A stretch of DNA of 64,000 bases from Marchantia polymorpha subsp. ruderalis (taxonomy: Eukaryota; Streptophyta; Marchantiopsida; Marchantiales; Marchantiaceae): assembly GCA_037833965.1 (NCBI GenBank), contig AP031353.1:18540501-18604500 (forward strand), written 5' to 3'. How positions within the stretch are numbered: position 1 is the first letter of the stretch; each line of letters starts with the position of its first letter. Positions 2,166 to 47,652 of the stretch are shown piece after piece. Both the position numbers and the translations under genes were made by a program. The notes beneath the pieces are model-generated. The model did no database searches. It was not told the DNA's origin and saw only the letters and a program-made list of their open reading frames with translations.

Positions 2166-2569
2166 TGTAATAACCCACTAAAGGCTAAAACACACACACA
2201 CACACACCTAAAACTACAGAAACACAACCCAGAGATCGGTTAGGACCTCTACTTAAGATTTCAGGGGGAAAGTCTCTCGCGAGCACTCAGCAAAGCTGCG
2301 GGTAGTGACTCCCAACTCCGGCTTTTACAACCCTCCCACTAGCTTTCTGCTAGCGTAGGGAACCCGGGTTGGACTTCCTACTTCGGATCGAAGTCACTCA
2401 TACGCGGTGAACAACACTCTCAACTCACAAAACGCGCAGAGAACACAGGCCCGCACAGAAGGACTCACTGAAAAACATTCCAGTAACACACCATAACAGT
2501 CTATTGAAGAGTTTGAATTCTCAAGCACTTGTCATTCCCAGAAATACTACAGGAGTTACCCTGAAGGCT
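2166..2569 (-). mobile_element. Family X giant LTR, copy 3 (3' end)
   Basis: The segment starts with TGTAATAACCCAC, the inverted form of the X 3' terminus, followed by an (AC)n run and the conserved 3' noncoding region. It stops at 2569, where the LTR of G1 begins (TGTCATG). The five bases before it (GGCCC, 2161-2165) would be the target duplication, but the partner end is not in the window. The same stretch appears again, slightly changed, at 18314-18394 on the far side of G1. Confidence 0.7.
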
Positions 2570-3084
2570 GTCATGTAGTTACGAGTCGGCTCACGAAGTT
2601 TAGACACTTACTATATTTAGCCGTGAAGTTAGGGTTCGGGTCACGAGGGGTATACAGTCGGGGACGGCTCGAAGAACGTTAGTTCTTCGAGTCGAGCCTG
2701 GAAGCGTTGGGAGCGTAGAGTGACTTTACCTTTTGCGTCGACCTGGATTCTCCGAGTGTGGAGTGGGTTGGGCTTGACTCATGTTTGTGACGGTGACGGT
2801 TTGTTGCCAGTAGGGTAATTGACCGACGGGAATTCCAGTGGGGAATCTCCCGTTCATTTCACTCGAAGAACTCCCGTTTGCCGAAGTCGTGACAGTTTAC
2901 GGTTTCTACGTGTAGTTTCGGTGTTTTTCTTGAGCCTGCGATTGAATTCATTCGGAGGGGTTTTGGACAGTAGGTCTTGCCGAAGGAGAAGTTCGAATGA
3001 TTTTCGCAGTCAAAGTTTGAGTTGAAGTTTTCAAGATTCTTTTGCGTTTGTGATAGGGTTGACGGGTTTTTATGATTGAGAAAT
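2570..3084 (+). repeat. G1 5' LTR, first part
   Basis: The LTR starts TGTCATG directly after X copy 3. Positions 2720-2812 recur at 18221-18313 beyond integrase, which identifies this as a terminal repeat. A TATATTTAG box lies near 2612. The LTR is interrupted at 3085 by X copy 4 and resumes at 7964. GAAAT at 3080-3084 is the target duplication of that insertion. Confidence 0.75.
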
Positions 3085-4006
3085 TGTAATAACCCACCAA
3101 AGGCTAAAACTGCAGTATGGTGGTAAAAAGATCGAACCCACAGGGACAGAGGCAACACACAGAGTAAAAGTGTCACATTTAACAGACTTTTGTAGAGTTT
3201 GAATTCTAGGCGACTGTCACTCCCAGAAATACTGCAGTGCTCTACTCGGAGGCTCGACTCGGAGGAGGATCTCAACTCGGAGGATGCTCGGAGGATGCAC
3301 GGTACAGCGTGGTCACTCAACACACACACACACACACACACCTGAAACTGGCAAAAAGCACAACTCGGAGGTCGGTCAGGACCTCCGCTTCGGATTTCAG
3401 GAGGAAAGTGTCTCACAAGTTCACTCAGAGGTTCTGCAGGTAGTGCCTCCCACTCCGGCTTTTACTGCCCTTCCGCCAGGAACTAGCGGGGGTACCCGGA
3501 CTGGACTTCCCACTTCGGAACGAAGCCTCTACATACGCCGTGGACGTCACCCTCGACTATCACACCAAACGCAGGGAGTGCAGACCCGACTGAGAACTTA
3601 CTGAAAACACGATCCAGTAACACACACACAACCTGAATTACAAACCAAGGTTTACACGAAGTAATGAAACTTCACATTGGCATTCAGGGGAAACTTCCCG
3701 TAGGAGTACAATCAGGATATGTCACTCGAAGGAGTAAGGGGGAACTGTTCAAGTATCTAACTCGCAGCCGGCTCTGAGCATCAGAAATCACCCGTAGGTG
3801 CAGATCCGCACTACTCAAGTCTCTAACCGGGTGCTAGCTCTGAACATTCAGCCGAAGGCCTTCAACTACAACATACGGTAACTTCGCTATGCTGCAGCTT
3901 CTCTACGTGGTGCCAGGACCAAAATGCACAAACACGCCAAGAAAGTGAGTTCCTGATCTGCACTTCCGAAACTGGAAGAGTCCCAAGGCAAAACGCCTTG
4001 ATCTAC

Positions 4007-4013
4007 TTTATAC
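4007..4013 (-). promoter_or_regulatory. TATA box of X copy 4
   Basis: TATAAAG on the minus strand lies about 0.92 kb before the 3' end of the LTR and just downstream of the X gene. The same box is at the same place in copies 5, 7, 9, 10 and 11. It marks the likely element promoter and places the X gene in U3. Confidence 0.55.
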
Positions 4014-4045
4014 CCTCAAAAGATCCTAACTAGCACTACGCTATC

Positions 4046-6601
4046 CTATCTACCACTCGCAGTATCTGCGCGAAACCAAACTACTCTACTGCACTCAGCA
4101 GATCCGGTGCTGCGCCTCCTGCGCGCCGGACTGCTCCGCGTACTATCTCTACCTTGCCAGTCTTCCGACCGGCTGCGTAACCCCAGGCGTCGGAGCGCTG
4201 TGGTGACTTCCGACTGCAAGTGCGCCATAGTGTCGCGCGCACCCGACAAGAAGGTTTCTAATTTTCTCGCCACTCGCCGCCGACTCCGACTGTCACCTTC
4301 CGTCAATGCCGCCGCCCGAAGCTCGAACTCCCTGAGTGTGATCCTCTCTTGGGCTGCCACCTCCCAATGGGTGTATCCTTTTAGACAACGAGTCACCTGT
4401 GCCGCCAACTCTCCTCGCGCCCTGCAGCTGCTCTCCACCTCGGCCAGCTGCATTTCTAATCCCGCACGTTGTGCCCTCAAATCCGAGCACTCGGATTGCA
4501 AGTTGCACAACAACTCCTCATCCTCCTTGCGGGCTCTTTGACTTTCTTCTAAGGCGCGCGTCTGGCGCGCAAGCTCGGCTGCTAGGACTTTGTTCTGTCT
4601 CCGCTCCTCCTGCAGTTCCAACTCGATCTTTGCCCGTATTAGTTCGGCATCCGCCTGACTTTTCGTCGCCGCATCCTCCTTCTGCTGCTGCAAGGCTTGG
4701 TATAGCTTCTGGGTGACCGCCAGGTGTTGTTGGAGGGCGGTGTTCCTTTCCACATATACTTGGCAACTAGAGGCCCACTTTGCCACCTTGATCCTCGTCC
4801 TTCGCCTGATAGTCTCCACATAAGACTGCGGTTTTAAGGCACTTCCGTATTTGGATGTCTTGCGATCCAGATATCGCAGGAGTGGAACTATCTGTTCGCA
4901 CAGCACCCCTATTGGCGTTTTCTGCACCGAATCCGCTTCCTGCTCTTCCGAGCTCGTATCATCCTCAGTCTCGAGGATTTCAGTCGCCACCGAATCCCTT
5001 GGCGACTCCCTGGAACTGTGGCGCGCAGCAGCTTCTGCTGCGACTGCTGCTCCACTGCCTGCTAAAATATCCAGGGCAGTGGGAGATCCCACTGCTTGAG
5101 CCCCTGTTCCGGCTCGATCTTCGGTTTGTGAAGGGGTCGACGCCGCAGTGACTTTTGTCACTCTTGCACCGCCCGCTTCTGCTGCCTGTCCTTCCGGCGC
5201 AATCTGCGCGGAAGGTGTCCTTGCTAAAGGTGCGTCCGCCGAAGGCGTCCGCACACTGGTCGTTGGCCCCATCCGTCTCGCAGTCGGCGAATCCGGCTGA
5301 CTCTCTGTTGTCCGACTCGCAGTCGGCCGACCAGCAGTTGTCCGACTGGGAGTCGGATACACCCTGCGCGTCTTGACTCCACTTGGCCTGCTTGTTGGGG
5401 GCGTTCTTCCAGAAGTGCCTTCCGCCGAAGACGACCCTTTGAGGATTGTTGGCTCGTCAGCCAAACTCTCTTCTGCTTCCGGCCTGCTGTCCGGTTCAAC
5501 GCGCCGTTCAGTTGGCCTTCCTTCCGCTTGTCGACCTTCAGTCATCCGACTCGCAGTCGGCCGGCTGTCAGTCCGTCCATCTCCTCCCGAAGGCCGTGGT
5601 GCCTTCTGTGCCGAGGTATCTGCCGTCTTCCCTAGAATCTGAGCGATTATCTCTTCCTGTGTGAGATTCCGCCGGGTCGGAGTTCGCCTGGTCTCCTCAG
5701 TAACAGTTGGCATTTTGCGTGCCCTCTGTTTTGGTCGACTGTGAGGCTCGGGGGTGGGCCGACCACGAGTCGGCGCAGCTGGCACTTCCGGCTGCCTGTC
5801 CTCAGGTCTCTCATCCCACTTTCGCTTTCGCGGAATGAGCTCGCTTCGACGTTCTTCTGCTGCTCTTGCTGGGGCCGGAGCCGGAGGCGTACTGGCAGGT
5901 TCCTCGTCCGGATATGTGTCTACTTCGGCCTCCCTCGAATATCTTCCTGGATAAGTCCGGGTCAGCTGCGGAAATCGAGTTTTCTCAGCATTTGTCAAAC
6001 ATCCCATCGCCCGGTAAAACACGATTAAGTAAGGCGATAGATGATTGAGGGTTCCTCCCTTCTCTTCTTGCGCATGTTGGCGCGTCACCTTCCACAGGAG
6101 CCGTGCCCAATGCACCGGAGCTCCTGACAGCACTAGCTCCACGAACTCTACCTGCCAACCATGCATGTAAGCGGTCTTGGTCGGCTGCAATATCTGCAGC
6201 AATGCCGTCGCGACATTTCTCCGCAATCGATCCTTGTAATCCCGTGTCCGGAAACCGTTCTTGGGATGTCTGGCCACTTTGAAGAGCTCATTGTAAGAGA
6301 CTTCTTCCTCCTGGGACACCTTCACGCTATCGGCCTCGAAGAGGAGATCCCCTTCCTCGCCGGCACACCTGCCCAACACCTGCGCCCAATTGCAAATGTC
6401 CCATCTCTCTGGGTGTGGGCGAAATCCGCGAGAAGGCTTGTGTCTCTCCTGCAGATACTCGCGCACCATCTCCGGACATGTCCAATTCCACCCCCATAGG
6501 AGAAAATCGAGCTTCAACCTCAACAGCACATCTTGAAATGCGCGTAGACCGATCTGCGGCACCCTGAGTGGAGACACTCGCAGCTGGGGAACCTTCGACA
6601 T
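4046..6601 (-). CDS. X protein (LTR-encoded coiled-coil protein), subfamily A
   Basis: This open frame of about 851 codons starts at the Met of MSKVPQLRVSPLRVPQ, the point where all subfamilies align; 37 further codons are open upstream. The N-terminal domain (about residues 1-240) has the conserved signatures LDFLLWGWNW, RDYKDRLRRN and GGTLNHLSPYL. A P/S/T-rich linker with TASRxTE-type repeats follows (about 300-490), then an acidic patch (about 570-600), a long coiled coil (about 620-800) and a basic Arg-rich tail. No transposase, RT, protease or integrase motif is visible. I do not recognise the family. A plant transposon-associated domain or a gag-like role is possible but unproven. The gene lies in the U3 part of a giant LTR. 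Confidence 0.7.
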   Translation of the reverse strand: MSKVPQLRVSPLRVPQIGLRAFQDVLLRLKLDFLLWGWNWTCPEMVREYLQERHKPSRGFRPHPERWDICNWAQVLGRCAGEEGDLLFEADSVKVSQEEEVSYNELFKVARHPKNGFRTRDYKDRLRRNVATALLQILQPTKTAYMHGWQVEFVELVLSGAPVHWARLLWKVTRQHAQEEKGGTLNHLSPYLIVFYRAMGCLTNAEKTRFPQLTRTYPGRYSREAEVDTYPDEEPASTPPAPAPARAAEERRSELIPRKRKWDERPEDRQPEVPAAPTRGRPTPEPHSRPKQRARKMPTVTEETRRTPTRRNLTQEEIIAQILGKTADTSAQKAPRPSGGDGRTDSRPTASRMTEGRQAEGRPTERRVEPDSRPEAEESLADEPTILKGSSSAEGTSGRTPPTSRPSGVKTRRVYPTPSRTTAGRPTASRTTESQPDSPTARRMGPTTSVRTPSADAPLARTPSAQIAPEGQAAEAGGARVTKVTAASTPSQTEDRAGTGAQAVGSPTALDILAGSGAAVAAEAAARHSSRESPRDSVATEILETEDDTSSEEQEADSVQKTPIGVLCEQIVPLLRYLDRKTSKYGSALKPQSYVETIRRRTRIKVAKWASSCQVYVERNTALQQHLAVTQKLYQALQQQKEDAATKSQADAELIRAKIELELQEERRQNKVLAAELARQTRALEESQRARKEDEELLCNLQSECSDLRAQRAGLEMQLAEVESSCRARGELAAQVTRCLKGYTHWEVAAQERITLREFELRAAALTEGDSRSRRRVARKLETFLSGARDTMAHLQSEVTTALRRLGLRSRSEDWQGRDSTRSSPARRRRSTGSAECSRVVWFRADTASGR

Positions 6602-7963
6602 TGCGTTGCCTGCACACACACAAACGTTCTCCCTTTCGCTCGCTCTCTCACAATCGCCACTGTGCGTCGGCCACTCAGGCACTGACTGCTCACTCTCTCT
6701 GCGCTCGTTCAAGATCGCTACTCACAATTCTTTCAAGGTCCGCCAAGATCCTTGCGCAACTCGTCTCCGCACTCTCTACTCTCACTGCAGGTCGCTCCGC
6801 CCTTGCGCGTAATCTTGGAACTGGAAATCGCAAAGTCAAGAATGAGAGAATGAGACTGGAGCGCAGTCTTTTCTTCTCCGATTTCAAGAACGTCCAACGT
6901 TCTTACTGGTTGCAACGTACGCAGCCGGCTATACGGCTTAACGGTTCGCCCTTTGCATGCGCGAATTCACGTCTCCGCATTGCGCGCATTCGCATGCTTA
7001 AACGTTGAATTCTCCCGCCGCCGCCACCTTCCGGACTCGAGTCCGCTGCAGGGTATACGTCGGCCCTGTTGTCTTTTCCTAACCCGCCCTTCTCCGGAGG
7101 CGTGTCGCCGCTGGTGCGTTCATTATCCGTCGGCGCCTTGCTGGAGGCGCACATCCAGCCGGAGCGAATTACGCCGGCGCGCAGTCGTACCGCCTATTTT
7201 GTCCTTTATGCCTCGTCCGTTGCTGCCAGCGCATATCCGTCAGCGCAACTCATGCCAGCGCATCCGGCCGTCAGCGCCACATCGGAGGCGTACATCCGAC
7301 CGGCGCTTTCCTTCCATGAACAGCCGCCAAGGGCGCTTCCGACTCTGAGTTGGTTTCCTCCTGTGAGCGCGTGATTCCGCCGAAGGCGCATCGCCGAGGG
7401 CGTACGGGAATCCTTTCCGGCTGTGAACCCTAGCGCGAACGGCGCATGTCCGGCTACGAGTTTTCCGACGCTCATAACTTCTCCATTCCTGATCCATCTC
7501 CGGCGCTCTTGGACTCGTTAGAACGAGCGTCCCGAGCTCTTTCTAATGCAACTTCAACCAACTGGATCTACCGTGTATCCCGATTGTTATGAAGGTTTTC
7601 CCTTTCCGCGCTAGCGGCGCTTCGCCGAAGGCGCACTCATGGTCGGATGCCTTTAGAGGTCCGGGCCCTTCTCCTGACGTCTTTAGCAACACCTCCTCCT
7701 GAGGTGTCTGCGCCGGAAGCGTAGCTTCCTTATACGCTAGAGGCGCGTGAGTAGAGACACCTCAAAAAGGAGCTTTTGCCGAAGGCGCCGAAGACGTTGG
7801 CGTTGGTACATCCGACTACGTGATTCTTTGTGCCCTCGTGACGATCTCATCAATCCACTCTATTTAGCGTACCCTTCTCTAGCTACAAACACTGCTTTGG
7901 TACTAGTTTTCTAAAATTGTTTAAATTCTGCAAAAAAAACAAAAAGTGTGTTACCACAGAAAT

Positions 7964-8847
7964 TGTTCAAAATCGAAGCTGCGAATCGTCGGTCCCTACG
8001 AGGTTTGGCCGGGCTGCAAAGAGTGGAATCACAGGCAGAGAAGGTGATGCGGTCGAAGTCCTCCGCCGAGTTGTTATTGAATTCAACAGCTTCGAACGTT
8101 CGCGGAGACGTATTTAGATGGGAGAGGTAGAAATCCCGAGGACTCCTTAATTCTGCCGACAAGAAGTTAGTGTTCGGAAAGGTCAAGCTGGTGCGGAGAT
8201 CTCAGGAGATGTATTGGCACAGGTCTCGTACAAATTAGAAACCTGAGATCAGCTTGGACGCTGGAAGTGAACTTGAAGGTTTGAATCCTGCTCGGAAATT
8301 GTGTGAATTGGGCGTGCAAAGACGGCAACGGTGATCTTTCAGGGTTTTAAATCGAGAAATATGTGCAGAAAGATTCTCAGATTTGATGTTTGGAAGTAGG
8401 GATTTTGAAGATTGAGTCGGAGTCTGAAAACTGAAGTTTCGGGATTCGCATTTGCCGTCCGGGTGGTCAGCGCGCCGCTGCTCGTTCTGAGCTTCCCGCT
8501 CTGCAGAATTTGTTTTCCCCTTTGATGCTCTGAGCGCTGCAGCTGCTGCCATTTCTGTCGATCGTGGCTGTTAGGGTTGTTGCGCTCGTGTTGATCCGGA
8601 TTGGGACGCGTTTGGGTGCGGATTCGTTCTCCCAGGTGCGGTGATCTGGTGGTGCCAGTCATGGACCGAGTTTGGTGGCCAGATTGGGACTTTCTGTGGG
8701 TTTTGCTCTCGATGATCGGACTGTGAGGAGATCAGGGACGAGAGCGACGATCTTCTGCCCCTTGCAAGGATACGGAGGAAGTCGATTTTGGTTGTCTTCA
8801 CGCGAGGAGAGGAAACGAAAGTAACCTGCTGCCAGGAAAATCGTTCA
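7964..8847 (+). repeat. G1 5' LTR, second part
   Basis: This continues the G1 LTR after X copy 4. The right edge is inferred from a CA dinucleotide a few bases before the primer site at 8851. That gives an LTR of about 1.4 kb without the insertion. The 3' LTR copy is too short to confirm this edge. Confidence 0.5.
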
Positions 8848-8850
8848 ATC

Positions 8851-8865
8851 TGGCGCCAACGCGCG
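8851..8865 (+). other. Probable primer binding site of G1
   Basis: TGGCGCCAACGCGCG lies three bases after the presumed LTR end. Plant LTR retrotransposons commonly start their primer site with TGG, matching the CCA end of a tRNA. I did not assign the tRNA. Confidence 0.5.
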
Positions 8866-11380
8866 AGAGGAGGTTGGATTGCATTTCTTGGTTAAGTCCA
8901 GTATGAATAGATTCAGGACAAGAGTGTGTTCCAGTCGCTCAATGTGGCGTCCGAGATCTGCTGTTTCTGCCAATTCTGAAGCATACTACCGCGACTGCAA
9001 GCACTCGGCGAAACTCACAGAGGGAATTTATTTCATCTCGTCCTAGAAAGAAGATTGAGGAACCAGCGAAGTCGGTAACGGTTACCATTCTTCCAGTGCC
9101 GGTTGCCATGTCTTTTAGACATCGAAACTGCATACGAATTAGTAGGCTGATGTGGATATAGTGGCTAGAATCTTACAGTAAGAGTTTCACGTGTTGCGTA
9201 CTTGTTGCGGTTTATCTTCGCATTTGGAGGACCCAGGCTCGGTCATTTTAGGAGGAAGAAGCCCTGTTGAAGTTTGCCGCAGAGTCAATTCTACATCAGA
9301 AGTACGTACAGATACGGTTCAATTACTTGAGGACAGGCGGGACATACCGTTAATGATGCGCGTATAAGTGGTCTATAATTGGATAATATGGGTCTTGGAA
9401 AATTGTTCCGAGCACAAGAACATGTGTACTTGGAGGCCTGAAGCTAGGATTTCGATGGACGAGTACATTACATGTTTATTATTCAGTAAGTAAGTTACAA
9501 CTCAAAAGTTGAGACACACCACTATTTCACAACTAGAAGAAAGTGGATGTACTGAAATAGAAGGTTATTCTTTTTGAGTTTTCTGAGGTTAAAGAAAAGT
9601 GCAACACTTTTCAGTACCCGGGAAGACTTTATTAGAGTTGCTTGTTGATGGAATTCATAGTTTAACTACTCAAGTTGGACGGGAGAAAAAGTCCGAATCT
9701 GAACCTACAGGTTCAGACCGTACAAGCTCTTCTACTGGATACGGTTATGGACAGAAAGTAGACAGGCAACTTCAGTAGTCCGCCAGCTTGCTAGAGGTTA
9801 TTGCATTAGTTTGCCAGCTATCATTGGAAGCATAGCTTTATTTCTTGTGAAGAAGCATGTGTTTTTCCATGCAAGAGGTTGTTTCTAAGGCATAGGAAAT
9901 AGTTATATAAATGACGATGATGGAGAATTAGAATTCCGTCAGGTGGAGAAATCAAGAGGTGAAGTTGGCCTGTGCAGGTCTTTGAGTGCCTTTCAGTTTT
10001 ATCATATTAGATTTTCAGAGGTAGTTTGCAGCAGGCATTTTCCTGGATTTTTTGAATTCTAGTCAAGAAGTAGTTAGTGAGGTTTTGAATTCAGTAGTTG
10101 AAGAGAATTTGTTCATAAACAGATTTATAAAACTATTAAAACTATCTAGTAGTTTTATAGTTAAATTGGTGTCTAGTTCCCATTTAGTGATCTAGTTTAC
10201 AGATATCCTATGAACGATCCTTGTACACAGTGGAGTTTTGACTTGTGAAGAGAAAATGCCGCTTGGTGCGAAAGTGGGAGACAGTTTACCAGAAATTCAG
10301 ACAGTGGAGGTCGTCAGTAGCGAGGAACGTGATCAGGAGCAAGAGGTGACAGTGCAGCCTCAAGTAGAAGAGAATCTGGTAAACATTGTTGTAGTAGAAG
10401 AAAAAGATTCCGGGTTAGATTGGGACGAGGCACTAGCCGTGGAAAAACTTCTAGAGGAATCCGGCCTAGAGTACAGGGTATGTGAGGACGAGTTACTAGA
10501 CCTTCCGCAGGATATTGTTGACCATTTGAGAGATGTTCAGTATGTTCAAGACTGTCTTTCAGAAGAAATTCTTGTACTAGAGAAATTTCTTGATAGTCTC
10601 CCAAAGGATTGATAGCAAATACTTGTAGCGTTTAGACATGAGGTACTGAAGGGATCAGGAGTTTGCACCCGATCTCACTACCTGTAAACGTGATGTTTTG
10701 AAAGCATTGTAAATATATATATGACGTAGTCAATATATTGAGCTTTCAGTGTGTAGTGTGTTTGTTGAGGGGCAGTGTGACCCCTGTGTGAAGGAGAAAA
10801 AAAAAATAAAAAAAAAAATAAAAAATAATATTTTCAAACAATTTTTGTTTGCAATTTGGTGGGAGAGGGCATCATAGGCACTGGAGTCCCACGTAGATGG
10901 AAGGCGATGGAGATCGAATCGGGATCGCGAAGCGATGCGATGTCCCGTGTGTGTTGTCTTGTTTTGTGCTGTGTTTCCTTTAGACTGGAGAGTCGTTGCT
11001 AGATGGTTGCTTGTGTTTGGATCCTCTCCAGTCTTGCTTCCTGGTGCGCGCCCGTGTAGGGGTGACGCTGATTTCTGGAGTAGTTTTACTCCTCTGTGCT
11101 GGCGATAGGGGGCTGGACTTGATCACCAGCCGGTCTATCTATGTTTCTCTCACGGTGAGACTGGAGTGATGACCAGTAGATCGTGAGAGTTTTCTTGCTG
11201 TGATGACAGGTTAGGTTGCCCATACCCCTTAGCTAGTAGGGCTAGAGTGGCTCAGTGCAGCACGACGTCAAGGCGGATTGGGTTATTGGGTGGAGATCTG
11301 GCAGTGGTGCCAGTTGAGGTCTCGTCATCACGGAGCAGTCTAGTGGTCCTGTTGAGGACCGCGGGGGATTTACGCGGAGT
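8866..11380 (+). other. G1 long untranslated leader
   Basis: About 2.5 kb lies between the primer site and gag. It is AT-richer than the X units around it and has no domain I recognise apart from the small acidic frame at 10238-10612. An A-rich tract (AAAAAAATAAAA type) lies at about 10797-10832. A comparable A-rich tract precedes gag in G3 (about 30666-30690). Nothing else is supported here. Confidence 0.5.
10238..10612 (+). CDS. Small acidic leader ORF in G1, unknown function
   Basis: The frame encodes 124 residues beginning MTCEEKMPLG and very rich in Glu, Asp and Val, with a leucine-rich, probably helical C-terminal half (LLDLPQDIVDHLRDVQ). It has no zinc knuckle and no motif I recognise. 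It sits about 0.8 kb upstream of gag, in the position where G3 carries its own separate leader ORF. It may be an accessory leader protein or a chance frame. Its length and acidic bias make me mildly favour a real coding past. Confidence 0.35.
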   Translation: MTCEEKMPLGAKVGDSLPEIQTVEVVSSEERDQEQEVTVQPQVEENLVNIVVVEEKDSGLDWDEALAVEKLLEESGLEYRVCEDELLDLPQDIVDHLRDVQYVQDCLSEEILVLEKFLDSLPKD

Positions 11381-11383
11381 GGG

Positions 11384-13750
11384 TTGAGGTATCGGCTACC
11401 TTCACCTATTTCGCCAGTTGTTGCGGAGCAGGATCAGAGTATTGCAGACTCAGAGTCTTTGGTGGTGAGATCGTCTAGTGTTCTCACCCCATTGATTTGG
11501 GACATGGACGGGATGTACGGGGCCGCGAAGGGCCCTCGACGTTACTCTGGTGCAGTGGGCACCATCGAGCTTGATGATTTTATTCAGGAGTTCGACACGT
11601 GGTGTGATATGCAGTTTCTGCGTAACCCCACGTTGTTTACACCCTTCTTTGCATGGAAGAGGTTATTCCAGCATTTGGAGGGGCCTCCCATGGACGATTA
11701 TCATGAGTTTGGGAGACAGTATGCTGCAGAGATTGATGCATGGAGACGGCATTCGTCTCCGAACTACTCATCCATTACCCAGGGTGGTGTGGGTACCAGT
11801 GGAGCTGCGAGTATCGGCATCAGTGGAGGTGCGAGTAGTAGCATCAGCGAGGGTACCAGTGGAGCAGTTGGCGCAACTGGTACTAGTACCAGCAGCGGTA
11901 CTGTTAGCATTGCCGGTGGCAGCACGAGGGGCGATGCTAGTGGCGTACCTTCGTTTAGCCCCATTCCTGAGTTCTTCCAGAGATTGAGGAAGAATTATCA
12001 GGGGGTGAAAACGGAGAAGTTGAGGAGCCTCTAGGAGTTTGAGTGGAAGACTGGTGAGAGTCTTCGTGAGGCATACACTCGTATGCGACGGCTCATCTCA
12101 GTTACTCACGGTGTGACTGAGGCACAGGCTGTCCAGTACTGGTATCGGATCCTGGACAGAGAGTTGCGGAGGAGAGTGCGTGATGCTACTCTCATGAGCG
12201 ACTCATCACCCACATTAGCCCATGTGTTTGCTCTTTCTGAGAAGATTGAGCTTAACATGGTGGAGGAGAGGGTGGTGACGTCTACATTTGCGAGGGACAC
12301 GACCACTACCTCGCGTATCCCACATAGCCCAGCACAGTCTCGCTCCATAAGTGGGAGTCGTGGAGGTCATACACGACATCCTTCAGGTCACAGAGAGCCT
12401 AGGGGCGCGGCCACCACTGCCTTCATTTTCGGGCCAGCCACAGGGACCGTCATGTTGGACATGCGGAGGTAGCCATATGAGGAAGGATTGTCCCCAGGAG
12501 CGAGAGGGACAAACTCCACATGCTAGGCCACAGCCGGCACAGGTGACCTGTGATCATTGTCATCGACCGGGTCATCCTCGAGAGCGTTGCTTTGACCTTC
12601 ATTTTGAGTTGAGATCTGGAGGTAGAGGTCGTGGAGGTGATGCTCCGCGAGGCCGAGGTGGTCGAGGTGGTCGAGGTGGTAGAGGTACCGGGGCCATTGA
12701 GCGTACCGCAGCGAGTGCTACTTCCGCCACAGAGAGCGCTATGGCTGCTCGGATTGAGCAGTTGGAGCAGAGGCTTGCTGCTATGGTTGGTCCGGGGGCG
12801 AGCACTTCCACATCTTACGAGGGAGAGGATTTCTCCTATTTGGCTAGTGCAGCACAGGTTGAGGCATCAGTTGCAGTGACCAGAGGTGGTGCTCGCACTT
12901 CAGAGCCACGTGGTGCGACTGTGGAGTTGGACCCTCAGAGGGGTGAGGGTGGACGTCAGTCTAGACTTCCCCAGTCCTTTTTGTTGTCAGAGGTGGGTAG
13001 CAGTTCATCTATGAGACCTGCATCGCCTACTGACACTAGAGTGAGAACTGAGGTTCTTACATCATCTGTTGTGGACGCAGACGTGCCATCTAGTGCAGTG
13101 ATGCGGATGGCCACTTCAGTCTTGCGATCTCCATTGTTTTCAGCCACGGAGTTGATAGACTCTGGTATTGATTTGGCTCGAGTATTTTGGGTAGCAGCCA
13201 CGTCGTGTGAGCATGGGAGAGTTGCTGCTACGAGTGCCGAGATACGTGAGGATACAGTTGAGGACCCATCCTCAACGTCTACATTGTTCGAGGAGACGAC
13301 TTGGCAGGCCGCAGCGGCGAGGATGGAGTCCTTACCAGCTCGCCCAGCCATTGATCGCGAGAGTATTGTTCCTGGTGTATGTATGGTGGACAACCGAAGT
13401 GGTCTATTTCGGTTAGTGAATTCTACGGGACAAGTGTATGTCCCAGCCAGAGTTTTGTTGGATTCTGGTGCACAGCCCTTGATGTTGGGCAAGGCTGCAT
13501 GCATTAGTTTGGGCATTCGGAGGTCAGAGTTGGAACCTTGCCCATTCCAGATCCAGACATCCCTTGGTGGCGCCAGCAACAGGTCTTACTTTATGACCAG
13601 GGAGAGCATAGCGGTGCAGTTGAGGCATGATCACCCTCATGATAGCTCGCAGTTTGGAGTTCGTGCGGTGGTTACATCAGCAGAGTCATATGATGTGCTT
13701 GTTGGTGGAGTGATGTTATACCCGATGGGCTTTCGGATGGACTATTGGAC
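11384..13750 (+). pseudogene. G1 gag and protease region
   Basis: This is the capsid-type gag region of G1. It is followed by two zinc knuckles near 12453-12595, one of them the canonical CX2CX4HX4C type (CDHCHRPGHPRERC), and an RG-rich stretch (GGRGRGG) that is likely to bind RNA. An aspartic protease motif, LLDSGAQPLML, lies near 13452-13485. A Gly/Ser/Thr-rich spacer (about 11780-11950) interrupts the gag portion, which is unusual for a capsid domain. The region belongs to a broken element, so I describe parts only. Confidence 0.75.
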
Positions 13751-14179
13751 GGAGACTGCCGCATATCGTCCTGGTTGGCAGTCCGGAGATGGACGTTTGA
13801 GCGAGCTGCCAGTGAGATTTATTTCTCGGGATCGACCTCTTGGATCTTCATCAGCGGTCTTGGCATCTGTTGCGGGTTTTAGCGGAGTGCTTACCTGGCC
13901 CGATGACTTGTTGGAGGGGAACATGTATGCCGACGATACCTCACTCTACGAGAATGTGGAGGAGGTTGTGAGTTTCACAGCGGCGGTGACTTCATCATTA
14001 GATGTTCCACTGTGGAGTTCGTGCCAGGCACTACAGTTGGAGGCTGATAGGTTGGTGAAAAAGGCTTGGAGTGAAGCCTCTTTACCAGGAGCGCCAGACA
14101 GGGCTTCAGCTGATCGGCTAGTTAGTGGGTCTAGCACATTGTCTCCATTGGTTACTACACCTATTGCATGGGAGTATTC

Positions 14180-15150
14180 CTCAGAGGGTGTTTGTTTGCT
14201 GGATCTTTTTGGTGGAATTAGCACAGGTTTGGCTGCAGTGTTGCAGTTAGGCATTCTCGTACGGAGATACTTGTATGTGGAGAAGGACGAGACTGCACGT
14301 CGAGTCTCTTCACGACATGTTGCACAGTTGATGCGGCGTTTTCCTTCGTTGTTGCCGCGATCAGCTGTCCGAGGATTCCAGAAGGCGTTGCCTGCAGACA
14401 TTTCGTTGCTGGGGGCGCAAGACCTTGACCGCGTTGGCCACATTGATATGATGATTGCGGGCTGGCCATGTCAAGGACACACACGCACTGGACATGGGAC
14501 AAGGTTGCATGATCCCAGATCTTGGATGTTTTGAGAGATGATGCGAGTGTTACGTCATGTCCAAGTGCAGCAGACACGTTCTCCAGCATACATTCTGGAG
14601 AACGTACCATTATTGGGTGACACTCGGGCCCAGTTGATGGCGAGTGTCCATCAAGTCCGAGCATGGATTGGATCAGCAGTACTGTTGGATGCTGCGAAGG
14701 TTGGATCTCGGGCTCATCGTGCACGTTTGTGGTGGACCAACCTTTTGCCACGTGAGATATTGCGTCATGCCTATGATTCGGTGCAGCGTGATCCTACACT
14801 CACCGTTGACAGTATCTTGGATGTTTCCCGACACTCTCAGGTAGTGAGAGTTGCTGACAGGTCACCTATGGCGTTGGTGAATCGCGTAGGTCAGCCTCGG
14901 ATGGCTTTACCTACATTTGTCAATTATCCGGCATCACATGCATATCGTGATGGAGGACCTGGACTACTGTGGGACAGTACCCTACATCAGTTGGTGGAGC
15001 CCAAAGCTGATGAGAGAGAGCGTGCGATGGGGTTTCTTACTGGTGTGACCGCGGCTTCTTCAGTTTCAGAGGCGTCGCGTCGTCAGGTTTTGGGTCAGGC
15101 TATGAACCTGAACTGCTTGACGTGGATTGTGACCTTGGGTTTGGCCGAGC
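14180..15150 (+). pseudogene. DNMT3-like cytosine-C5 DNA methyltransferase domain in G1
   Basis: The ordered motifs of a C5 methyltransferase are visible between protease and RT. The S-adenosylmethionine motif I is LLDLFGGISTGL (about 14190). The catalytic motif IV is GWPCQG (about 14458), and the ENV motif VI is near 14598. AHRARLWWTNLLP near 14710 resembles the AHRARYFWGN motif of DNMT3. ERERAMGFL with a following RRQVLGQAMNL (about 15016-15110) resembles motifs IX and X of DNMT3. Family knowledge: DNMT3 enzymes methylate cytosine de novo. Retrotransposon-borne methyltransferases have been reported in dinoflagellates and charophytes (from memory). The motif wording points to DNMT3 rather than DRM or CMT. 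Placing it inside the G1 polyprotein is seen directly. Any self-methylation role is inference, and the element is broken. Confidence 0.88.
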
Positions 15151-15399
15151 AACGTCGTTTGCGCGCAGATTTGGTGGTTGTTACACCACTTATTAGCTCA
15201 TTGCTTACCGAGACGGTAGTGGCAATGGCTGGGGGCGACAGGCGAGATATTCGTCATCCTTGGAGTTTATAGGACGTGACGAAAGGACTTGCCAGAGTTG
15301 CAGCCCATGCAGTTGGAGAGGATTCTCAGGTGGAGGTGGCTACGAAGGAGGGTACGGAGAACCCTTCTTTGTAGTGTGTAGCGTAGCAACCATTGACAG

Positions 15400-16850
15400 T
15401 GTCGCTTCCCTCTAGTGTGCCTATGGAGGAGGAATGGGAGCCATTGATTGGTTCCCAGATCACAGGAGGAGAGAGGCGACACTTGACACAATTCCTACGG
15501 GACTATAGGAGTTGTTTTGCTTTCAGTATGAAGGAGTTGGGTGCGTTGATTGGACCCGGTATACGGATAGAATTGGCTAGTGATACGCCAATCTTCCGTC
15601 GTCCTTATCGATACAGTGAGATGGAGAGAGATTTGATTCGGAGTAGGACGTTGGACCTACTGGAGGCTGGACTAGTGGAGTTATCGCATGGTGAGTATGC
15701 GTCAGCCACTGTCATGCCGGTGAAGAAGGATGTACATGGCAACTACACGGATAGGCGCATGTGTGGAGACTACCGTCCTATCAATTGGCAGACGAAGTCC
15801 GATAAGTATGCCATGCCTACACTTGAAGAGATCTTCGATGTGGTGGGACATGCGAGGATTTTTAGTACTTTGGATCTTCGGGCAGGATACCATCAGTTGC
15901 CAATTCGGGAGGAGGACAAAACCAAGACAGCGTTTTGGGGCGTCAACTCCCACGGCAAGGATTGTTTGTATCAGTGGCGATTCTTACCCTTTGGGTTGAA
16001 GAATGCACCTGCCGAGTTTCAGAGGGTTATGGACAGAATCCTGGCGGGGCTGGATTTTGTCAGATGTTACATTGATGATATCTTGGTGTTTAGTGACACT
16101 TTGGAGCAACACCAGATACACTTGCAGATTGTGTTTGAGCGATTGAGGGCTCATGGTTTGAGATTACATCCTGGGAAGTGTAAGTTCTTCCAGGAGAAGG
16201 TTGAGTACTTGGATCATGTGATATACCCAGGTGGTTTAGGAGTTCAGCAAGCAAAGGTGGAGGCTATTGCACGCATCCCTCGTCCCACGGATGTGAGTAG
16301 AGTTCGTGCATTTATGGGTTTAGCGAACTACTACCGGAGGTATGTGAAGGGGTTCAGTGCTATAGCCAAGCCTTTGAACCAGTTGCTGAAGTCAAATCAG
16401 GAGTGGCAATGGGGAGATGAGCAGGAGAGAGCTTTTGTTGAGCTCAAGGCCAGGTTGGTGGCCGCTCCCATCTTGAGGAGACCTATCAGAGGTCGTCCAT
16501 ACCAATTGCACACTGATTGGAGTATGTTGGAACTTGGAGCGGTGTTGACGCATCGTGATGATGAGGGCAAGGAGTTTGTGGTTGCGTACGCTAGTCGTTC
16601 GAACAATGCAGCGGAATCGCGGTATAGTTCGTACAAGGGAGAGTGCTTGGCAGCGGTGTGGGCTGTGGCGCACTTCAGGTGTTACTTGTTTGGTACGCAG
16701 TTCACCCTTGTTACTGATCATCAACCGCTCAAGTGGTTGATGGAGTCCGACAAGCTTACAGGAAAGCTTGCACGGTGGGCTCTCATCTTACAGGAGTACG
16801 ACTTTCAGGTGGTGCATAGACTTTCAGAGTTGCGAACCTAGATGCCGATG
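15400..16850 (+). pseudogene. G1 reverse transcriptase and RNase H region
   Basis: The RT fingers and palm are clear: CGDYRPIN, FSTLDLRAGYHQ, LPFGLKNAPAEFQR and the catalytic YIDD near 16068-16079. The connection domain and RNase H follow (QLHTDWS, SSYKGECLAAVWA, LVTDHQPLKWL). The sequence is a typical Ty3/gypsy RT. It lies immediately downstream of the methyltransferase and upstream of integrase, which fixes the element class. Confidence 0.88.
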
Positions 16851-16989
16851 GTTTGAGTCGAAACCCATGCACTAGCCAGGAGGATGACACTGGAGCTAGA
16901 TGGCATGGTGAGGTTGACGAGGAGATGGTGCCTGGTTGGCATGCATCTGCCTTCATGTGTTGGTTACGTGGGAACTCCAGCAGAGAGGA

Positions 16990-18215
16990 TCATCTGACAT
17001 CTTACTCTAGTCAGAGAGTAGATGGTCGATCTTCAGATCCCGAGGTTGAGGATGGTGATGTGGATCAGCGTGATGTACACAATGATGCATTGGTGTTGGA
17101 GTTCCTACGGACCAGCATGGTGCCAGGCACAGTGGGTGCCAAGGAGCGAGATCGTGTTCTCCAACGGGCCAAGAGGTACCGATTGGAGGGATCACATGTT
17201 CTCCGAGTGTGGGAGGACGGTAGGGTACGAGTAGTACCACATCCAGCCCAGAGAGCACGCATTGTGAGGCATGCTCATGAGGAGTTGGAACATTTTGGAG
17301 TGAAGCGTACCTACAGCTTACTCCTTGGTCAGTATTGGTGGCGTGGTATGCATACTCAGGTACAGCAGTTGGTATCACGTTGCATGGTTTGTGATCGAGT
17401 GAGGGCATCATTCAATGCCCCGACACCAGTGTTACATCCATTACCCATCATGGGGTTGGGTTACCGTTGGAGTTTGGACTTTGCTGAACCACTACCTTTG
17501 ACTGTACGACATCATCGGTATGTGTTGGTGATGGTGGAGCATTTCTCCAAGTGGATTGAGTTGGTGGCATTACCTGACAAGGAAAGTGAGGGAGTAGCGT
17601 ATGCTTTTCTTGACAGAGTGCTTAGTCACTATGGTGCACCAGCTGAGGTGTTGACCGATCAGGGAACGGAGTTTCAAGGTGAGTTTCAGGTCTTGTGCGA
17701 CAAGGCACTGATTGATCATCGGATCACGTCGCGAGATCATCCAGAGGCGGATGGTTTAGTTGAACGTGTTGTATAGACGGTGAAGAGGGCGTTGCGCAAG
17801 TATGGCCTGCAGAAAGGTCATCTTGGGGACTGGGATATCCAGTTACCGTGGTTGGCCATGGGATATCGGTTCAGTCGGCAGGCATCCTTGGCTTCCTTCT
17901 CACCATATTTTCTATTGTACGGCCGAGATCCAGACTTGCCAACATCGATTCGTCGTGAGTCTAGCAAGGTGGTGAACCTTGATGACCCGAATATGTGGGT
18001 GAGAGTATGTTCTCAACGTGCAGAGCTCTTTCGGAGAGTTATGCCTGCAGCGTTTGAGAATCTTACGATTGCTCAACATAGAGATACTTTGCGGTATGCA
18101 ACCATTCGGGGAGGAGGTTATCGACCATCAATTCGTAGATTCCATGTGGGAGACTACGTCTATCTACAGCAGATTGCACCGACGACATTGGATGTGACGG
18201 CGGGACGCACAATCT
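16990..18215 (+). pseudogene. G1 integrase region
   Basis: A zinc-binding HHCC domain (HEELEHFGVKRTYSLL ... CMVCDRV, about 17275-17395) is followed by the DDE core with SLDFAEP and LTDQGTEF (about 17470-17670). A C-terminal portion ends near 18215, next to the 3' LTR remnant. No chromodomain is visible, so I cannot assign the clade firmly. The integrase joins element DNA to the host chromosome. Confidence 0.82.
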
Positions 18216-18220
18216 TGCGG

Positions 18221-18313
18221 GTGACTTTTCCTTTTGCGTCGACCTGGATTCTCCGAGTGTAAAGTGGGTTGGGCTTGACTCATGTTTGTGACGGTGACGG
18301 TTTGTTGCCAGTA
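18221..18313 (+). repeat. G1 3' LTR remnant
   Basis: These 93 bases match 2720-2812 of the 5' LTR with about three differences. The match ends at CCAGTA, where sequence of X copy 5 begins. CCAGTA is also present at that point in X copy 3 (2480-2485), so the junction has microhomology. Confidence 0.8.
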
Positions 18314-30701: not shown

Positions 30702-31560
30702 ATGGGCAAGCTTCCGGTATTTTATGGGAGGGAGAATGAGGATGTAGAAGCTTTTGTTAGGGACTTCAAGAGGGCTTGCATAGGAAACAATGAGAGGAAG
30801 AAGGACAAGTGGGCTATGCTTTTGCCGGATTTCTTGGAAGATTCTGCTCTCAAGTGGTACAAGGAGTACAAGAGGGAGCATTCAGAGGACGACACGTGGG
30901 AGACATTAACGGAGAACCTGATCGAAAACTTTCTTCCTAGTGAAAGTTATGAAAAGTTGATGTGTGAGGTCACCTTCTTGAAACAAGGAGAGAACGAGAA
31001 GGTGAGGACCTATGTGGAGAGAACCGAGAAGTTGGAATCTAGATTCCACATGGTGTTGAGGAAGGGCGGAGATGAAGTGGATGCTACAATGGTGGGGATA
31101 AGGGCGATGCTCATGAAGAACTTCGTTGGAGGTTTGAGACCTGAGATTTGAAGTAAGGTGAGATACGAGAAGCCCTCTTCTAAGGCTGAAGCCATTCGAA
31201 TTGCTATTAGAATGGAGGAGAGCTTAGAAGATGATGATTCTAGCTTGGTGGCTAAAGAAGTAGCTCCACCGGTTGTAGGAAGGTCCATTGTTTCAAACCC
31301 TTCTACTTCATCCACGATAGCGAATCCTAGTGTGGATTTTCAAAATGAGTTGAAATCTATCACGGAGACTCTAGCAGACCTCAAGATCAATGTAGTACAG
31401 TTGTGGGAGAAGAGGAATCAGAACGTAGGAGGAGGCTCTAGGGGTTATGGAAATTATCCTCCAAGAGGAAATCCACCTTCAGGAAACTTTGCGGTTTCTT
31501 GCTTTTCTTGTGGAGGTCCTCATTTTCAGAGGAATTGTCCTAACCCTCGACAACATGATG
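30702..31560 (+). CDS. G3 gag region
   Basis: The capsid-type domain reads YGRENEDVEAFVRDFKRAC ... ALKWYKEYKREH ... DDTWETLTENLIENFLP, a classic retrotransposon gag core. A helical segment and a zinc knuckle (CFSCGGPHFQRNC near 31500) follow. It would package element RNA in a virus-like particle. It lies directly upstream of protease and pol. Confidence 0.85.
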
Positions 31561-31989
31561 GAGTTCGGCACAACAACAATGCACCGGCCACGCAACAAGC
31601 CAAGGATAAGGGAGTAGCATCCATTGATGTATTCCCTCATCAATGCACTTTTGAGAAAGGGGAGAGCTCAAAATCGAAAGTGGATATCCTTGCCCATGAG
31701 AAGAAGCGTGCCCGATTTGCGGACGAGTCAATTTTCATGGAGGACACGCCAAGTCGAAGTACACGGTCAAGTGGAGTGAGTCAACCAAGAGTACCAAGGA
31801 AGAAGTTGGGCATGGATGACTTTTCCATTTCATCTTCTCAAGCTAAGTATGACGTGGTGGAGGATGTAGGAAATCAGAAGGCCAATATAACAGTTGGTCA
31901 GCTGATTGCCTTGAATCCAGCCATTCGGAAGGAGTTAAGAGGAGGTCTTAGCTCCACAAGGACCAAGAAGCGGAAATCTAAGGGGAAGG

Positions 31990-34900
31990 CTCACATGACC
32001 AATGTGGGAGTTGGGGTGGTGGATGCGGCTGCTTCGGAGGTATGTACACATGCTTCAAAGATCGAAGTGAGGATCAATGGACATGATGTATCAGATGTGT
32101 TGGTTGATGGTGGATCGGCTGTGAATGCCATGTCTGAGAGGTTGATGCAGAAGTTGGGTATGCAACCTTCTAGACCTTCTAGCATAATTGTTGGTATGGC
32201 CAACAAACAGAAGGTAAGACCACTGGGGGTGGTAGACAAAGTTGTGGTTAGTGTGAGGGGAGTGCAAACTTTGCTTTCCTTCCAAATTCTCAAGGAAGCT
32301 AGCTACGACTTGCTGTTGGGACGTCCTTGGTTGAGGGCAGTAAGGACTACGGACCGATGGCACAAGGGCTATTTAAGGATAGGCCCAAAGAACCATCGAG
32401 TTAAGGTTCCTTTGACGAGAGGAGGGGAATCCACCACTGACTCAGATAGACCAACTGACGAGTATTGGGAATCTGAGAGTGAAGAGAGTGGTAGCTTTTC
32501 AGAAGTTGACACAGACATCTCAACTTCTGATCAAGAAACATCATCAGAGTACTCTTCTGATGATAATGTTCAAGTACAAGTCATTGCTGCCATGGAGTTG
32601 TTGCCTAGGCCTGGAGTGAAGAAAGATCCTGACAAAGTGGAGATGAGCGAAGAGGAGGTGTGTCGACGACTGTCCACTCTCAGGTTTGGTCCCAAGGTTA
32701 TCAAGGAGGAAAAGGCAAAGTTTCTGGATATATTTCGCAAATATATTCATGTTTTTGCCTTTAGTTACAAGGATCTTAAGCATGTGACGTTGGAGACTCA
32801 TCGCATCGAGTTGGAGGAGAAAGCTCGTCCTATTCGGCAAAAGCAACGCCGAATAAATCCACCTACGGCTCTTGTGGTGAAGGAGGAGATCGACAAGCTC
32901 AAGGAGGCTGGCTTCATCTACGAGGTAGAAAATTCTCAATGGGTGTCTCCAATTGTGATAGTGAAGAAGAAGAATGGTAAGCTACGAGTGTGCGTAGATT
33001 ACAAAAAGTTGAATGCTGTCACAAAGAAAGACTACTATCCCTTGCCTTTCATAGATGAGATTCTAGAGGAGGTTGCTGGCCATGAGTGGTATAGTTTTGG
33101 AGATGGTTATAGTGGCTATAACCAAATCCAAATTGCCTTAGAAGACCAACTCAAAACAAATTTTACCACTCCATGGGGAACCTTCGCTTTTAGAGTGATG
33201 CCGTTTGGTCTATGTAATGCTCCTGCCACTTTTCAAAGGTTCATGAATAGAGTGTTCGAACCTTTCATTGGAAAGTTTGTAAGGGATTTCATAGATGATT
33301 TTTGTGTTTACGGGAGGAAAGCGGATCATTTTGATCATTTGATCAAAATACTTCAACGGCTGGAGGAAGCTAAGGCTTCACTCAATCCAGAAAAATGCAT
33401 TTTTGGATGTGAGGAAGGCCTATTGTTGGGGCATATCATCTCCAAGAATGGTATAGCGGTGGACCCAGAGAAGGTGACACGGATCATGGAGTTACCTTTT
33501 CCGGCGACTTTAACCAAGTTGAGGCAATTCCTTGGTATGGTGGGGTACTATCGACGGTTCATCTTGTCCTTCTCCAACAAAGCTCATGCCTTGACAAATT
33601 ACATGAAGAAGGGAGTGGAGTACGAACTCATTTTCAAGGATGAAGCTGCAAAGACGGCGTTCGAAGTTCTCAAAAAGGCGTTGGTGACGGCTCCAATTTT
33701 GGCGAAACCGGATTGGGGTAAACCTTTCATTCTCTACACAGATGCATCAAATATTGCTGTAGGATGCACCTTGAGTCAATTAGATGATGAAAAGCATGAT
33801 CATCCAATTGCCTATGCTAGTAGACAAATGGTTCAAGCGGAGAAGAACTACTTAGTGACAGAGAGAGAGGCCTTAGCTGTAATCTTCTCACTTAAGAAGT
33901 TTCGACATTATTTGTTGGGTGGGTGATTCACTATAGTGACTGATCATAAGGCTTTGAAATACATTTTCAACAAGCCTAATGCTGAAGGGAGGATAGCTAG
34001 ATGGAAGCTACTACTAGCAGAGTTTGATTATACCATTGAGGATAGACCTGGAAAGAAGCATGCTAATGCGGATTTGATGTCGAGAGCATATGATGATGGA
34101 GGAGATCAGTCAGTAGATGACACCTTTCCGGATGAGGACTTGCTAGTCATGGACACGGCGACAACAGTACCGGAGGAGTACAAGGAAATTTGGGATTTCA
34201 TTTCTAGAGGAGAGTTTCCTCAAGGAATGCATCAAAGGGAGAAAAATGCATTAGTGAAGAGATGTCAACCTTATATGATCATGGAGAAGGTACTTTTTCA
34301 TCAAGGAGCTGACGGACTTCTACGAAGGGCGGTTGGGAGGGGAGAGGCACTACAACTCATGAAGGAGTTTCATGATGGTGCAGTATGTGGAGGACATTTT
34401 GCGGGGAAGGTAACTGCCTTCAAAATTCTTGATGCTGGTTATCATTGGAAGGGTATTTTTAAGGATTGTGTGGAATATTGCAAAAGTTGTGATGTGTGTC
34501 AAGCTTTTGCTAAAAAGTCCATGAAAACCCCTCCTATGATTTCTGTACCAGTGTTAGGTCCTTTTGAAAAGTGGGGAATAGATTTTGTAGGTCCTTTGAA
34601 TCTTACTCCTCGAGGGAATAAGTTCATTGTGATAGCTACAGATTATCTTACGAAGTGGGTAGAGGCAAGATCACTTAAATCTACTAATGAGAAGGAGGTT
34701 GGTAGATTTTTGTATGAGAGAATCATTACTCGATTTGGTTGTCCATTGGAGTTAGTATCAGATAGAGGAGGAGAATTTGTGGGAAGTATGATTCAAGCCA
34801 TGTTGGAGCACTTTTCCATCAAGGCTCGAGTGACCACTTCCTACAAACCTAACGCTAACGGGTTGGCGGAGCGGACCAACTACACTTTCTGTATGATGTT

Positions 34901-35468
34901 GGCCAAGAATGCAGACATGGACGTGAGTAAACACAATTGGGACAAGAGGCTCCATGCTATCTTATGGGAGTATCGCACAACATGGAAGACATCTACCGGA
35001 TACTCACCTTTTCGGATGGTGTATGGAGTTGAGTCAAAACTTCCCATACAGTTTGACTTGACAACATTCACAACAATCCAGCAAAGGTTGAAGAAATCAA
35101 ATGGAGCAGAAGCCATCAAGTCTCGCCAACAACAATTGATGGAGTTGGAGGAAGCTCGAGCACTAGCCATGATACGAGTGGAGCGGGCTCAACAGTTGCA
35201 GAAGAAGTATCACGACAAACGAAGTGGAAACCAGAACTTGAAGCCGTTCAAGGAAGGTGATTGGGTGATGCTCTTTGATGCAATTAGATACAAGAGAGCT
35301 AGGAAAAAGTTTCTTCCTAAGTATTTTGGACCTTTCATAGTAAGTAAGGTGTGGGGAAATTTCACTTATGACATCAAGGAGTTAGAGGGACGTCACTTCG
35401 ATCGAGTCAACCACGACAAGTTGAAGTTATTCCATCGAAGATCAGATTCTTTCACTCCGAGGGCGTAG
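31990..35468 (+). CDS. G3 protease, RT, RNase H and integrase region
   Basis: The protease motif is VLVDGGSAVNAMSERLM (about 32098). RT has SQWVSPIVIVKKKNGKLRVC, FGDGYSGYNQIQ, MPFGLCNAPATFQRF and the catalytic FIDDFCVYG (about 33288). RNase H has FILYTDASN, YASRQMVQAEKNY and IVTDHKALKYIF. Integrase has the zinc domain (GHFAGKVTAFKIL ... CKSCDVCQAF) and the core (KWGIDFVGPL, ELVSDRGGEF, NANGLAERTN). The C-terminal tail has FGPFIVSKVWGNFTYDIKEL, and coding ends just before the polypurine tract. The layout and motifs are those of plant non-chromodomain gypsy elements. Confidence 0.88.
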
Positions 35469-47600: not shown

Positions 47601-47652
47601 TACAGCCGGCGCGGCCATCAAGTGAGACGTTCTTCACGACCAAGAGCCGACC

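Follow-up and report, generated by a model that had tools for sequence, protein, structure and literature searches.

The locus examined here raises the question of why a Ty3/gypsy retrotransposon should hold a cytosine methyltransferase of DNMT3 type (hereafter DNMT) between its protease and its reverse transcriptase (RT), whether that enzyme belongs to the element, what it may do there and where it came from. The element lies in a stretch of 64,000 nucleotides (contig C4, 18540501-18604500), which we call the window, and the genome searched comprises 241.5 Mb in 9 contigs.

The domain in the window follows the canonical, unpermuted order of motifs I, IV, VI and VIII and the C-terminal region: motif I (DLFGGISTGL) lies at 14202-14231, motif IV (AGWPCQG) at 14457-14477, ILENV at 14592-14606 and RAHRARLWW at 14709-14735, followed by the C-terminal motifs EPKADERERAMGF (14997-15035) and RRQVLGQAMNLN (15078-15113). 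An earlier note on this DNA had described DNMT3 motifs in DNMT3 order, flanked by protease and RT on the same strand; every motif it named was found in its place, a protease motif lies upstream and RT, RNase H and integrase lie downstream. The profile search that it proposed returned a match to PF00145 (Pfam, E 6.9e-9), with the single internal stop of the domain, at 14532-14534, read through. DNMT3 is the nearest solved relative both by sequence and by fold: DNMT3A was the top match in a phmmer search of PDB sequences (E 2.3e-9) and in a Foldseek search (E 4.5e-17), where the 50 matches listed were DNMT3-family entries. The model used for the latter, predicted from a 30-row alignment, has a pLDDT of 77 and a pTM of 0.82, with residues 107-119, 231-269 and 342-349 below a pLDDT of 50. 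A DRM identity was rejected, because the motif order of DRM is rearranged and that of the window domain is canonical. Viral contigs contain 28 matching loci, all of them matching parts of the domain at a best-segment identity of 27-38%, and phage records gave no match to its C-terminal half. Taking the identity of the domain and of the family together, we consider it nearly certain that this is a DNMT3-like C5-methyltransferase inside a Ty3/gypsy family.

Features of the element copy in the window, numbered from the first base of the window
Feature	Position	Strand	Basis or remark
5' repeat A1, 293 bp, TG..CA	2569..2861	+	96% to A2 of L020 over 293 bp
Candidate self-primer binding site CTCGAAGAACT	2862..2872	+	exact reverse complement in A1 at 2681-2691
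Leader cargo, start	2873..3087	+	matches cargo of L036 and L039; found in L036 cargo search
Insert breaking the cargo, foreign to the element, approximate ends	3088..7958	.	gap in L036/L039 match
Leader cargo containing two pairs of spliced exons (8035-8345; 8441-9335)	7959..10100	+	exons match C9:11257788-11258586 and C6:7217910-7219406
Family leader blocks U1-U5	10137..11317	+	86-97% to L020
Small ORF within leader blocks	10214..10612	+	ORF list
ORF1 region: gag, protease motif, DNMT domain	11318..15383	+	frame broken in window copy
DNMT3-like C5-methyltransferase domain	14184..15140	+	Pfam, PDB sequence match, fold match, motifs
ORF1 stop in readthrough context, TAG CAA CCA	15384..15392	+	same context type in 21/21 copies
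ORF2: RT, RNase H, integrase (H2C2, rve)	15387..18223	+	frame broken; C-terminal PHD finger absent
3' repeat A2 fragment, fused to ORF2 by deletion	18221..18313	+	97% to positions 152-244 of A

The copy in the window is defective: its ORF1 contains premature stops and a frameshift, its ORF2 has breaks in the frame, and part of its 3' end is deleted. Its gag portion includes CCHC-type knuckles (12453-12590), and its protease motif, LLDSGAQPLMLG, falls within 13452-13517, upstream of the DNMT domain and on the same strand. No Pfam match to the protease was found up to E 0.1 in the window copy or in an intact copy (P0121), and the protease of the intact copy matched neither Pfam nor NCBIfam; it is therefore named by its motif and by a relative (P0153) that has a PF13650 match N-terminal of its DNMT. 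The last 1.2 kb of the insert that breaks the cargo (6750-7959) recurs in at least 39 other places at 100% rounded identity. This insert also holds an ORF of 891 aa on the minus strand (4046-6721), which other ORFs in the window, e.g. 47626-50805, resemble by eye. A second gypsy-type element occupies 31152-35468; its first ORF extends from protease to RT and, by eye, has no DNMT.

Genome-wide, at least 123 PF00145 matches were found (123 of 290 candidates scored), and 24 of these fall within open frames 1351-1365 aa long. Host genes account for at least two of the 123, namely a DNMT3-like locus (L001; DNMT3B top match, E 1.2e-14 with a 147-aa query) and a locus with, by eye, a rearranged DRM-type motif order (L002). 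Twenty copies were fetched for their long frames, comprising 19 of the 24 and L023 (1324 aa); 19 of the 20 have a single-frame ORF1 of 1351-1365 aa, accompanied in 14 of these 19 by an ORF2 of 1042 aa. As a sample independent of this choice, we used the 40 best matches to an RT stretch (40 of 412 candidates scored), and found the DNMT domain in place in 39. In 36 of these, judged by the profile match alone rather than by the whole domain, a DNMT match in the same orientation is listed 1272-3987 bp further upstream (within 1272-1314 bp of RT in 34); three more carry the entire 1110-bp domain at 97-98%, and the remaining copy shows just the last 192 bp of the domain within the 2 kb read.

Substitution patterns point the same way. 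Between two subfamilies (17 copies against two, L024 and L028), the DNMT domain has a dN/dS of 0.13, compared with 0.11 in the protease, 0.16 in gag, 0.28 in the linker and 0.21 in ORF1 as a whole, and within the 17 copies the DNMT domain gives 0.19. Constraint is weaker immediately N-terminal of the domain (0.24 and 0.47), and the loosest part of ORF2 is its PHD finger (0.44, within 14 copies). Judged by these ratios, the domain is under purifying selection, with values like those of protease and gag. The search for further copies with the same domain order, suggested in the earlier note, thus uncovered a family, and the data support the view that the DNMT-like enzyme is a standing part of it rather than a chance insert; the window copy is best explained as a defective representative of a Ty3/gypsy family that is young and present in many copies.

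The coding strategy of the family bears on how the enzyme might be made. In 21 copies, including that of the window, the ORF1 stop reads TAG CAA CCA (20 copies) or TAG CAA CTA (one copy), so that the TAG CAA YYA context is constant although flanking bases vary between subfamilies; UAG CAR YYA is described as a type I readthrough motif (PMC11166343), and our literature search found no paper linking this motif with a retrotransposon. Since the DNMT domain lies on the Gag side of this leaky-type stop in all 21 copies, with ORF2 in frame behind it, DNMT would be synthesised together with Gag, and RT-integrase at a lower level. ORF2 follows the order RT-RNase H-integrase, with an rve and H2C2 integrase, in both the window copy and the intact copy (L012), and neither gave a match to a phage-integrase (tyrosine recombinase) up to E 0.1. 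In the intact copy, ORF2 (P0122) terminates in a PHD finger (E 9.5e-11).

The true ends of the element, located through two repeats named A and B, are unusual in arrangement. Repeat A (293 bp, TG..CA) stands at the left, and the right end reads AGGGGGGCGA - B (118 bp) - GC - A - B, so the outer ends differ (A at left, B at right, the second A internal) and share no full LTR. The left-end A measures 293 bp and ends TGTCAT..TTTCA in all ten left ends read. Split direct repeats of the form A..B-A-B, as in DIRS elements, are present, together with perfect 4-bp target-site duplications in all ten copies with both ends read, one of which has a single B. The two A repeats differ at 0, 2, 1, 0, 3, 1, 0 and 0 of 293 sites in eight copies. 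A search with the exact first 19 bases of B, which overlooks diverged pairs, recovered both B repeats in 11 loci, and in each of these the two are identical. The B-GC-A junction forms the palindrome GACAGCTGTC in 15 of 20 loci and is absent from the stretch read in the other five. The junction of the polypurine tract with the first B occurs 162 times at up to 3 mismatches (0 in a reversed control), a figure that counts 3' ends rather than whole elements. Three 3' ends carry a single B (L009, L012, L024) and one a triple B (L014); in L020 the permuted-repeat 3' end spans 8263-8804. A long end repeat was also sought in the 9.5-kb loci: the only one, of 784 bp in L018, is part of another copy in tandem, and L023 showed internal duplications.

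Directly after the first A, nine of ten left ends carry the 11-nt candidate primer site listed in the table, whose reverse complement lies at position 113 of A in all ten. Tf1 is described as pairing the 11 bases at the start of its RNA with the primer site in order to prime (PMC7175516), and an 11-nt site after the 5' repeat that is complementary to another part of the same element is likewise reported for Tf1/Sushi and Tcn1 elements (PMC7175516, PMC6317226). One reading of these ends is that reverse transcription would produce LTRs of 413 bp (B-GC-A), preceded by the polypurine tract and followed by the primer site, and that integrated copies would stem from circular DNA cleaved within an LTR; the cut circle would explain a DIRS-like repeat order beside an rve integrase. 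Single-B 3' ends fit a one-LTR circle and equally a recombination between the two B repeats, which gives the same end with the duplication kept.

Behind the primer-like site the family carries cargo. Ten leaders were compared, nine of them from the first A onward, and the A repeat gives way to about 2.3-3.3 kb that differ between copies except close kin, the share that the window has of its kin's cargo being interrupted by the insert. At an eleventh left end, that of L023, a long poly-A tract and a short leader follow A in place of primer site and cargo, and its ORF1 has internal duplications. When four leaders were searched against the genome, many of their pieces proved 90-100% identical to sequence elsewhere, in several cases strung together as chains of exons; the hits listed also include weaker ones and other members of the family, and the window leader was searched without its nested repeat. 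Mosaic leaders were found in L029, L031, L033-L039 and the window (7959-10100). Their spliced pieces come from at least six other loci, in both orientations, and 12 of the 13 exon junctions examined fall on GT-AG introns absent from the cargo, ten of them with at most one mismatch in 24 flanking bases; the thirteenth, in L044, has 9 mismatches in 24 bases. An ORF of 130-133 aa in the leader blocks, corresponding to the small ORF of the window, is conserved across the leaders of several copies.

Cargo moves with the element, since that of L020 recurs at 100% in a copy on C8 and at 98% in a copy on C2. The donors, which are without annotation, are called host genes on account of their exon structure, and template switching onto host mRNA is their likely route into the leaders; it could also be the route by which DNMT once entered the element. 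A rule of capture by jumping in plus-strand synthesis, suggested by nine antisense junctions among the first ten, was dropped on the full count of nine antisense (three donor loci) and three sense (three donor loci). Maize Bs1, a retroelement with pieces of three host genes, is comparable and is treated together with further captures in plants in a review (PMC13317346); in the liverwort family, in contrast to Bs1, the cargo varies between copies and begins directly after the primer-like site.

This kind of element is already known, because KnitGypsy-Dnmt3 of Klebsormidium nitens, with a Dnmt3 in a gypsy Pol and DIRS-like repeats, was described in 2018 (de Mendoza et al. 2018, PMC5890265). Captured C5 methyltransferases in retrotransposons of dinoflagellates and charophytes, mentioned in the earlier note, are indeed in print there. 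The family described here, from a different host lineage, agrees with that definition: as compared with the paper's description, both have an intronless, unrearranged Dnmt3 under purifying selection in a gypsy polyprotein and a DIRS-like repeat arrangement, and unequal outer ends are mentioned there as an oddity too (PMC5890265). The available parts of that description do not note a DNMT in ORF1 before a leaky-type stop, a PHD-ended integrase or host-mosaic leaders. SymbioDIRS-Dnmt3 similarly combines a retrotransposon Pol carrying Dnmt3 with split direct repeats, but has a tyrosine recombinase where the liverwort family has an rve integrase and 4-bp target duplications (PMC5890265). A 2025 survey of DNMTs, in the parts available, again names streptophytes and dinoflagellates (PMC12344493), and the words PHD and methyltransferase are absent from the main text of a survey of plant LTR elements (PMC6317226).

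A partial literature search found no paper on bryophyte gypsy-DNMT3 elements beyond the 2018 paper. As read from the sequence, what is new is in the detail: a DNMT on the Gag side of a leaky-type stop, a PHD-ended integrase, permuted ends with 4-bp duplications, an 11-nt self-primer-like site and leaders spliced from host loci. Neither a DNMT nor permuted repeats are known from Tf1/Sushi or Tcn1 elements.

The explanation that we favour overall, and hold to be probable, is an element with a Gag-protease-DNMT ORF1 and an RT-RNase H-integrase-PHD ORF2 whose DNMT may methylate the element's own DNA. Taken by itself, the proposed role of methylating the element's own new DNA is put forward tentatively, as a serious candidate. 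The enzyme would be produced at Gag level with the ORF1 polyprotein and packed in the particle, where freshly made double-stranded element DNA would be methylated before integration, and the new copy would arrive methylated. For DIRS forms, the 2018 authors think such methylation before integration likely; two SymbioDIRS-Dnmt3 enzymes are reported to have given de novo CG methylation in yeast, and the KnitGypsy DNMT3, the sole gypsy enzyme tried there, gave no activity, a result its authors call inconclusive (PMC5890265).

An enzyme that acts instead on the host, methylating silencing loci or competing elements and shifting host methylation in the element's favour, seems to us rather unlikely. 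A DNMT3-type fold and a PHD finger of histone-reader type in the same element would suit such a role, but the present data do not separate it from self-action, and the Klebsormidium methylome is reported to be land-plant-like despite such elements (PMC5890265). Somewhat more doubtful is a domain serving as a nucleic-acid-binding or RNA-methylating part of the particle and methylating no DNA. Its position on the Gag side of the stop would agree with this, as would the RNA methylation that the 2018 authors raise for LINE forms (PMC5890265), but the catalytic motifs speak against it: all 19 open ORF1 copies preserve motifs I, IV (PCQ), VI (ENV) and VIII as well as a further two at the C-terminal end, a figure biased upward because these copies were chosen for long open frames, and across 30 aligned rows the P and Q of PCQ are invariant while its C and ENV are kept in at least 90%.

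The origin of the domain can be sought among its relatives. A first search gave 154 homologous proteins, the matches listed including Marchantia, Calypogeia, Sphagnum and Riccia and many unlabelled, mostly metagenome proteins, and a second search gave 51. One is labelled Chrzof1, which we take to be Chromochloris zofingiensis; among the homologues listed for the domain (120 of 154 and all 51) and for the host DNMT3 (120 of 912), most of them unlabelled, no row is named K. nitens. Marchantia polymorpha entries are nearest among the element proteins, P0123 having 94% identity to the intact domain and 95% to that of the window, and for the genome's spliced host DNMT3 the top match among those listed is Riccia fluitans at 60%. 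The host is accordingly taken to be a liverwort, probably near Marchantia. Two layouts recur. In the first, the order is protease-DNMT-RT (P0153, from a liverwort) or DNMT-RT (P0173); in the second, DNMT lies between RNase H and integrase (P0157, P0165, P0166; one labelled green alga). A PHD finger is matched in all five, though weakly in P0173 (E 0.006), and no precomputed PHD match exists for P0154 and P0169. By eye, a second methyltransferase-like stretch (DPWxG...PWF or PPL) without a Pfam match follows the PHD finger in P0157, P0166 and P0173.

In an RT tree rooted with the RT of the second gypsy-type element of the window, the second layout forms a single clade (100/99) that holds 12 of the 20 element rows; P0173 sits on a long branch of that tree. 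The DNMT tree unites 13 rows of this layout in one group (91/95), and since both trees agree on this split, one acquisition and one move fit. In the DNMT tree, 39 element domains form one clade (100/100) and seven plant host DNMT3s, including L001, another (100/100), neither nested in the other. A branch of 1.53 divides the 39 element rows from 24 host, animal and other rows, the animal sequences being one row assembled from two stretches, and there is no clear outgroup. Because the two clades are separate, the acquisition looks old. The phylogeny that the earlier note proposed thus brought out a distinct element clade and gave no support to its idea of capture from a host methyltransferase, as far as the present host DNMT3 is concerned; even for a family that does take up spliced host pieces, a recent capture from that gene is very improbable. 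The other alternative raised there, a chance insertion of a host gene fragment into one copy, to which the broken state of the window copy might have pointed, is refuted for practical purposes by the domain's presence in nearly all RT-selected copies, its low dN/dS between subfamilies and its occurrence at the same site in other species.

These parts may be joined into a bolder picture, which we consider speculative and rather improbable as a whole: an ancient green-lineage family with a DNMT3 writer and a PHD finger of reader type that would prime itself, integrate from a circle cut at the repeat palindrome, methylate its DNA first and repeatedly copy spliced host mRNAs beside the primer site. 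If true, it would be a continuing factory of host-gene mosaics. DNMT-bearing gypsy elements are not a Klebsormidium oddity, the same parts being found in liverworts, Sphagnum and a green alga. The uptake of host sequence by such an element has left its record in the host mosaics beside the primer-like site, and with many near-identical copies and transformable laboratory species in the lineage, the benefit that a transposon may draw from its own de novo methylase would become testable.
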